DNA of 64,000 nucleotides from Nephrocerus scutellatus (taxonomy: Eukaryota > Arthropoda > Insecta > Diptera > Pipunculidae). The stretch is from positions 8,417,001-8,481,000 of the forward strand of contig OX352764.1 in NCBI GenBank assembly GCA_947095585.1, in the 5' to 3' direction. The notes under the pieces were generated by a model. It saw only the letters and a list, made by a program, of their open reading frames with translations, did not search any database and was not told the origin of the DNA. The translations under genes were made by a program, and so were the position numbers. This document shows, one piece after another, positions 46,401 through 52,128 of this stretch (the first letter of the stretch is position 1; every line of letters starts with the position of its first letter).

Positions 46401-49400
46401 CATCAGAAATCAGTCAGCGTTTGCTAAGCTCAGGTCAAATACTCGTAGGTAAAAAGTTTCACTGCAATTTATTATGCCTTAGATATAAACATTATTATCA
46501 TCAACGCGTAGCTTAGTGATAGGATGACGGCAGGCTGCCATAAGTCCTTTTTGCATGCAGGATTATGCAGACATTTTAATTATCGGCTGTATTGCGAAAA
46601 GTTTAACTGTAAATTAAACTTAGCTTAGGCTTTTCTCTCTACTCTCTAATATATCTGATCATGTTTGCATTGGCTTAATGGGCAAATGTTGGTTGGTTTG
46701 GTTAATGAAGGGTGCTCGCTATCTACTATGCAGTTCTTGCCACTCGAATTTTTTCCCGTGGGCACAACCCCAAAATATAACGTTTAACGTAAATTGTTGT
46801 TCCTTTTTTTCCTCCCTTTAAAAATCTCTAGTCACACAAGTGCTTTTAATTATACACACCCCCACACTTTGTGAATTCATTAATAGAACGTCGACTTGAC
46901 CTACTTTTAGGTTAAAGGGTGCTGTTGAATAGGGGGAGAAATATAACACCAATTTGCATTGGGTGTTGTTGGTGGGGGGTGGTGAAGAAATCTAATTACA
47001 CCCTAAGCTTAGCTGCAATTTTGTTTTTTATTTGAAAACCCTTTAAACTGCAAAACTTCAAAAACATCATTCAGGTAGTTTTGAGTAAAATTTAAAAGAC
47101 GGGTATTAATCGAATAGTGTAGCATTTTGGAAGACCCCTAGGCGGCTTGGAATCGCTGATAGTCTCCAATAGGACTTATATGCATCATTGGCGAGCTGTT
47201 CATATAACGCGATTCACGTCGGGTTACTTTTCTACTTTCTAAAAATAAACCACAGAATAATAATATTCGGCGCGACAGACCGTTGCGGTGCAAGGCCTAG
47301 CTTCTCGCGACTATTTATATTGTGGATGCATATTTTTGCACACAAATGGAAGCGAAGGCAAATGAGAAGCTTTTCGTGACAAGCCGATGTTTAGCATACA
47401 GCCGTGAGAACTACTTTTGGTGTTTTATGGGATTCAAACTACGAGCCCATGCTCAGAAATCTATGCACTAATCACTGAGCAAGTGCCGACAAACCACAGA
47501 ATAAGAAAAGAATAAAATGACAGGAAAGGGCGATTAAGAGTATGTGTGGATTTGCGTACTAAACGGTTTTTCAATAAGGACATAACAATTTTGTATTTAA
47601 ATAAAACACAAAACACCTGGACTGAATTTTATTCCAGGTGTAGTACCAATTTTAGATTTAAGTATGGACTTCGATGACGCTCGATGATCACGGCGAGCAC
47701 GTTTGCAGCGATCGATTTTTTTGGAGTCAATTTTCCACATATATCGGTCGGAACGTTGACAAATTTCGCGTTCGATAATGTTCCTGAGCATCTCTAACGT
47801 TGTTGGCTTGTTTGGCTAAACCAATGACTTAATGTAACCCCATAAAAATAAATCCAATGGCGTTAAAACGCATGAGCGAGCTGGTTATTCGACCGATTCG
47901 ATTTCGCTCATATGACCACCGCGAGCACGTTTGACGCTATCGATTCTTTGGAGTAAATTTTCCACCAATCTTCCTCACATATCGGCCGGAACGTTGACAA
48001 ATTTTGCGTTCGATAATGTTTGTGAGCTCCTCTAACGTTGTTGGCTTTTTTGCTTAACGTAACCCCATAAAAAGAAATGCAACGGAGATAAATCGTATGA
48101 CCATTTTAATCAACGAAAAAATATGGCCCAATCACACATCCGGCATGAAATCCACACCACACGGTCTATTTTTGTTGATGCAATGGAGTCACCTGAAGCA
48201 GATGTGGGTTTGTTGCTGTCAAATAACGGATATTTTGCTTAGTGACAAAGCCAAAGCCTAAAGCGCTGAAGATGCTTTTTCGGTGAAATTCAGGATTTCC
48301 TTCAAACTTTTGCAGAGCCCAATCGGAGAAGTTTCGGCGCTTCAACTGATAAAGAGACTTCAGGTTTTGAGTTAATTTGATCTTGCTAGGGTCTAGGCCA
48401 AGATCTTTACCCAAAATTTGCCACAATGTGGACTGAGAGATTCCCAATACCTGCGAACGGCGTGGACTCGACTGATTTGGCTCATTTTGAACATTTAGGA
48501 ACATTCATTCATGAAAATGTTGACTCGAATTTATTCACTATAGCCGGCACAACCTGTCTGGTGGGACTATGATTACGACCGAAATTTGGAGTAAGTGCTC
48601 TTAAAGTTACGACCACCAACTTAAAATGTCGGTTGTAATTTTTAATAATTTCCAGACGTTGCTCCTTCATAAACTTTACCACGATAAAAACGTAAACTTT
48701 GACTGACGTTTCGACATTGACAGATAATAACAAAAGTTTAAGGGTACGTTTGTATTAAAAAACAAAATTGTTATGTCTCTATTGGAAACCGCTTTACTTA
48801 TGAAGGAGGAAGACTTAATTTGAACTAAAAGAGCATCGGACAAACATCTCAAGTGGGAAACAATTTATTTGTTTTTGATTCATGATGAAGGAGTCATTGG
48901 CTCATACTTCTTCTTCAATGATCCTGGTAAAGTAGCCACAGTCAATGGAGATCGCTAACGGACCTTGTTGAGTGACTTTTTTTTATGATCAATTAAAAGA
49001 GGTTGACTTGGAGCATATAGTGTTTCAACGAAGCGACATTACACGCCAAACAGCTGACCAAACAAGCAAGTTATAGAAGCTAAAGTTAGGTGACCGTGTT
49101 ATCTCCAGTTAATTGGCTTGGTTGTGAGCTTTTTTGGGCTATATGTAAAAACCATATGCCAATAAGCCAGATACTTTAAACGACCTCAGGACCAACCAAC
49201 ATGTAACACGAAATTGCCGTCTGATTTATAAGAAAAAGTCAGGCATTTCCGTGGAAGACATTTGAAGGCATTCATAAGAAAATAAACAATTACGTGGACC
49301 GCACAGTTTACCACAATTTTTATAGGGTTTTCGCTATAAACGACAATGCAACTATATGAAAAGGCGGCTCGTACAGTCGGGGATGTAATGGGGAAATATC

Positions 49401-52128: not shown

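Follow-up and report, generated by a model that had tools for sequence, protein, structure and literature searches.

According to published descriptions, nuclear Wolbachia transfers (NUWTs) are common among both nematodes and arthropods (PMC12693587, PMC4046930, PMC3998919, PMC9894559, PMC4675112, PMC4299567). Those reported from filarial nematodes and Dictyocaulus are decayed, mostly non-functional chromosomal fragments of Wolbachia DNA, regarded as fossils of past infection (PMC12693587, PMC4046930); among insects, pseudogenised Wolbachia genes are reported from the chromosomes of another fly, Glossina morsitans (PMC3998919), and nuclear Wolbachia DNA from the grasshopper Chorthippus parallelus (PMC4675112). 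The gyrA scrap described here, from the big-headed fly Nephrocerus scutellatus, is a new instance of this well-known relic type of insects and worms. In the literature on N. scutellatus, and on Pipunculidae with Wolbachia, we found no title on Wolbachia insertions in N. scutellatus, and the word Wolbachia is absent from the main text of the genome note for the species (PMC11252644). That note describes an assembly made from PacBio and Hi-C data with a QV of 64.7, comprising eight scaffolds plus, apparently, the mitochondrial sequence, with a chromosome 4 of 100.35 Mb (PMC11252644). The genome as analysed by us has 613,391,848 bases in nine contigs, and the window, by which we mean the whole 64,000-nucleotide stretch of DNA that was analysed, is C4:8417001-8481000 of a contig (C4) of 100,345,432 bp.

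The fragment lies at 49354..49592 on the plus strand of the window, and was recognized by blastn, by Pfam and NCBIfam, by its position in a tree and by its occurrence as a single copy in the fly genome. DNA alignment to Wolbachia gyrA gives it a length of 239 bp. Its edges are sharp and a single 1-bp deletion interrupts it; it represents a part of the breakage-reunion domain, from the quinolone-resistance region through the catalytic tyrosine. The corresponding open frame of 77 amino acids, at 49340-49570 (+), starts just ahead of the quinolone-resistance region and ends beyond the RYTEARL motif; it matched the GyrA/ParC family of Pfam (PF00521) at 4.8e-24, the NCBIfam gyrA model TIGR01063 at 5.7e-32 and, in the PDB, solved gyrases (best 4e-24), bearing out the claim in the first-pass annotation of a bacterial gyrA fragment on the plus strand. 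The same annotation had noted changed core residues, and these are indeed present: HPHGD, identical in all 26 of the Wolbachia-type rows of our alignment (see below), reads HLHND in the fragment. It had also placed the limits at 49315..49605 and counted two frameshifts, and here our results differ, because the homology is confined to 49354-49592, any extension being about as good as shuffled sequence, and the homologous part has a single frameshift. The latter is the loss of 1 bp, in comparison with the Wolbachia-type rows, at 49563..49564 (+), located by alignments including those to loci L086 and L002 and by the end of the open frame; downstream of it, the frame meets a stop at 49571-49573. 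An upstream extension of gyrA to 49315 was rejected, with one-sided scores of 0-4 against shuffle means of 2.5-4.2 for six of six Wolbachia-type rows, as was a downstream extension past 49592, for which five of six such rows were unremarkable and the sixth, L095, gave a score of 9 that was equalled in 6 of 60 shuffles. The alignment to L002 continues, weakly and with gaps, to 49619.

The bacterial source was sought at both the protein and the nucleotide level. Species genomes of bacteria and archaea were covered by a pattern-limited scan, from which the best 80 of 521 relatives were kept; among these 80, the top match was the Wolbachia of Meromenopon meropis (82% amino acid identity), followed by the Wolbachia of Onchocerca ochengi (79%) and then by Ehrlichia (77%). 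By blastn, the fragment was 88% identical to a Wolbachia-type genome, G023, and 83% identical to the Wolbachia of O. ochengi. It was matched by 42 of the 54 genomes that share a family with the Wolbachia of M. meropis (43 matches), and 30 loci cut out from these, together with an Ehrlichia locus (L003), formed the 31 rows of an alignment and tree, 12 weaker matches without a cut-out locus being excluded. The rows comprise 26 of Wolbachia type, two of them from genomes named Wolbachia, and five of Ehrlichia type. The three closest rows are identical to the fragment at 211 of 238 bases (0.887), compared with identities of 0.70-0.72 for the five Ehrlichia-type rows. In the tree, the fragment groups with the 26 Wolbachia-type rows against the five Ehrlichia-type rows with support of 99/98, and so nests with Wolbachia, beyond being merely bacterial. 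The position or supergroup of the donor inside Wolbachia was not separated by this tree of 238 aligned bases, in which 21 of 28 inner branches are open and the bootstrap is unsettled.

On the fly side, the fragment lies antisense in an intron of an EGF/laminin-G gene on the minus strand, at 37568..49961, which was delimited by its splice sites and a phase-0 join. The intron is 12,394 bp long, with a GT donor at 49961 and a polypyrimidine-AG acceptor at 37568, and a distance of 369-607 bp separates the fragment from the 5′ splice site. The open frame upstream of the intron, at 49962..51980 (−), encodes EGF repeats (Pfam EGF, 2.2e-27) and a Ser/Thr-rich stretch, and that downstream, at 37214..37567 (−) and bounded by the acceptor, encodes the end of an EGF repeat and the start of a laminin G domain (Pfam Laminin_G_2, 2.3e-7); both pairs of coordinates are open-frame limits, which may differ from the exon limits. 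The phase-0, in-frame join across the intron rebuilds, by eye, a six-cysteine EGF pattern, while the joined 57-amino-acid peptide gave no Pfam match at 1e-3. We take the gene to be eys-like, a putative name that follows the order of its domains and the proposal of the first-pass annotation. Elsewhere in the window, an exon at 3574-3894 (+) encodes part of a small GTPase of the Ras/Rab type (Pfam Ras, 4.4e-22), Rab5-like by eye.

The linkage to host exons on the same sequence, as first proposed, is thus borne out by EGF and laminin-G frames on both sides of the fragment, on the minus strand and with matching splice sites; at the level of the assembly, the fragment is joined to the host chromosome, within the intron of a host gene. 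This bears on whether contamination, or a chimeric join in the assembly, might have put DNA of a live Wolbachia into a fly contig. Endosymbiont DNA is described as frequent in the samples of such genome projects (PMC9894559), but the piece found here is broken, 239 bp long and without further gyrA on either side, it has 13 changes at sites that are invariant in the 26 Wolbachia-type rows, and its place is on chromosome 4 of an assembly built from PacBio and Hi-C data, with a QV of 64.7. Moreover, the longest match to the fly genome from three Wolbachia-type blocks (described below) covered 495 query bases, so that no whole bacterial chromosome is evident in the assembly. We consider an origin by contamination or misjoining to be very improbable.

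The pattern of change in the fragment is that of a sequence without a coding role. Compared with L086, which is among the three rows nearest to it, it has 27 differences, at codon positions 1, 2 and 3 in the numbers 10, 5 and 12, and 13 codons are changed in meaning, whereas equally distant Wolbachia-type rows differ from one another nearly only at position 3 (for example 0, 1 and 26 for L086 against L105). Where the 26 Wolbachia-type rows are invariant, the fragment has changed at 7 of 63, 5 of 76 and 1 of 10 sites for the three codon positions respectively, or 13 of 149 in total (about 9%). Its private changes (9, 5 and 2 by codon position, hence 14 at positions 1 and 2 against 2 at position 3) also contrast with the variable sites among the Wolbachia-type rows (16, 4 and 69, hence 20 against 69; Fisher p 1.1e-6). 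The even spread of changes over the codon positions indicates that the fragment has been free of protein constraint since leaving the bacterium; with its short length and its deletion, it is fragmentary and decaying. If neutral change in insects proceeds, per site and generation, at a few 1e-9, with one or two generations a year, a divergence of about 9% would make the insertion, as a rough estimate, of the order of 10-30 million years old, with an uncertainty of at least threefold, which supports, in rough terms, the earlier view that the event was an old one.

The same data weigh on the suggestion that the fragment has been co-opted by the fly, for example as an intronic regulatory element or a short peptide. 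A frame of 77 codons is still open, and it stands only 369-607 bp from the splice donor; however, the survival of an open frame would be expected with so few substitutions, and the frameshift, the codon-neutral change and the altered residues of the catalytic domain are not those of an intact, constrained coding sequence. Co-option is, in our view, somewhat less probable even than contamination. Least probable of all, to the point of being negligible, is that no transfer occurred and the fragment derives from a eukaryotic type II topoisomerase, to which GyrA is distantly related, or from another ancient host gene, given its 88.7% nucleotide identity to Wolbachia-type gyrA and given that, among the 50 PDB sequences listed (E ≤10), 46 were gyrase A or topoisomerase IV proteins, two were entries named ‘DNA topoisomerase medium subunit’ (approximately 0.025), two were unrelated and none was a eukaryotic topoisomerase II.

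We therefore regard the gyrA fragment as a nuclear Wolbachia transfer that is decaying in an intron, and assign this reading a probability of roughly 0.96. A lateral transfer with Wolbachia as its source, as the first-pass annotation proposed, is supported by the identity at the nucleotide level, the tree, the setting in an intron, the chromosome-level assembly, the codon-neutral decay and the further scraps in the genome that are described below. The fragment yields no gyrase and is very probably functionless. Wolbachia inhabit the germ line, and the repair of a chromosome break can take in pieces of broken symbiont DNA. A germline chromosome of an ancestor of the fly would thus have taken up a short piece of gyrA from its Wolbachia, most likely joined at a double-strand break that was repaired with stray symbiont DNA, a route that fits the sharp edges and the absence of a link to the neighbouring repeat, without being proved by them. 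Landing antisense in an intron, the piece would probably have been harmless, with no effect on the host gene, and would have been inherited; substitutions and one deletion would then have gathered in it without selection.

The neighbouring repeat is a decayed, dispersed element at 48875..49247 (+), recognized by its matches in the fly's own genome, of which 42 were listed, itself included, the others at 69-81% identity. It had been called mariner debris, and by eye it is mariner-like, a label that is only partly backed: its repetitive nature was confirmed, but the four plus-strand pieces tested with Pfam showed no transposase. The matches to copies of the repeat stop at about 49247, some 106 bases short of gyrA, which begins at 49354, so carriage of gyrA by the repeat is unsupported. 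At 48600-48800 of the window there is a further dispersed fly repeat, with at least 40 other matches at 81-87% identity, which is overlapped by a minus-strand helix-turn-helix DUF4817 frame at 48512-48754.

The fragment has company in the genome, if not in the window. The whole of G023 (1,190,930 bases), compared with the window, gave the gyrA piece only; four extra matches (E 0.43) were no better than four obtained from the reversed window (E 0.12-0.43). For the fly genome, the queries were three 20-kb blocks of G023, namely the neighbour of gyrA and two chosen arbitrarily, 60 kb in total out of 1,191 kb, and these gave 18, 33 and 27 matches, at 70-100% identity and over at most 495 query bases. 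Many of these matches involve repeats that have between tens and hundreds of hits in G023, so that several of them share places in the fly. Stretches unique in G023 occupied six, four and four places, a total of 14, with identities of 80-98%; two matches of 70-71%, by eye fumarase-like and translational-GTPase-like, were excluded from this count as possible host genes. Two of the 14 places are approximately 1 kb apart. The place at C2:83460118-83460399 was counted once and consists of three abutting Wolbachia-type pieces (96, 88 and 94% identity) that lie approximately 0.1-1 kb apart in the bacterium, an arrangement suggestive of a mosaic or internally deleted insertion. At C1:47674672-47674825 and C1:47675306-47675459, the same Wolbachia-type stretch occurs with equal score, 634 bases apart, and this pair is likely to reflect duplication after insertion. 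The fly chromosomes also carry copies of high-copy Wolbachia-type intergenic repeats, palindrome-like by eye, at C1:24459756, C2:6759500, C4:21224036, C4:40733255 and other places. Block L136 carries the later part of gyrA, and no other parts of that gene were among its 18 matches.

As controls, an AT-rich block from Ligilactobacillus (GC 31%) had no matches in the fly genome, an empty result that proves nothing in isolation, and a block from Escherichia coli had ten, of which seven were in 23S rRNA, two in tufB and one in rpoB, all at 64-82% identity except for one 35-bp stretch of rRNA at 94%. The rpoB match, of 127 bases at 74% (C2:21808422-21808548), could be either a Wolbachia scrap or an exon of a host RNA polymerase. 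Scaled to the whole of G023, the 14 places extrapolate to near 280 in the fly. The N. scutellatus genome may be a dense Wolbachia fossil bed, holding some hundreds of scraps that differ in age and perhaps in donor strain, left by repeated past infections of this parasitoid fly lineage, possibly with strains from its insect hosts; we would give this broader picture an even chance of being right.

As such insertions are common, a single gyrA scrap is of limited interest and would be ordinary by itself; the more interesting observation, which merits a genome-wide study, is the number of scraps, of mixed identity, carried by a parasitoid fly for which we found no report of Wolbachia. Dated scraps reveal past carriage of Wolbachia and its rough timing, even in a lineage that is now uninfected, and many scraps of differing identity in a parasitoid could reveal the rate of symbiont turnover and jumps from host to parasitoid. 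In practical terms, nuclear copies may mislead PCR or read-based screens for Wolbachia in N. scutellatus.

Set beside the described systems, the Nephrocerus scrap resembles those of filarial nematodes and Dictyocaulus in its state of decay, but that work concerns nematode hosts and is genome-wide, with a tree for each gene family in the case of the filaria (PMC12693587, PMC4046930). In C. parallelus, two supergroups were told apart, represented by at least 448 and 144 kb (PMC4675112), whereas the sources in Nephrocerus were not told apart. For the other fly, G. morsitans, two large insertions are described, of 527 and 484 kb, most of whose sequence closely resembles that of the resident strain (PMC3998919), whereas the matches sampled in Nephrocerus are at most 495 bp long and 70-100% identical.
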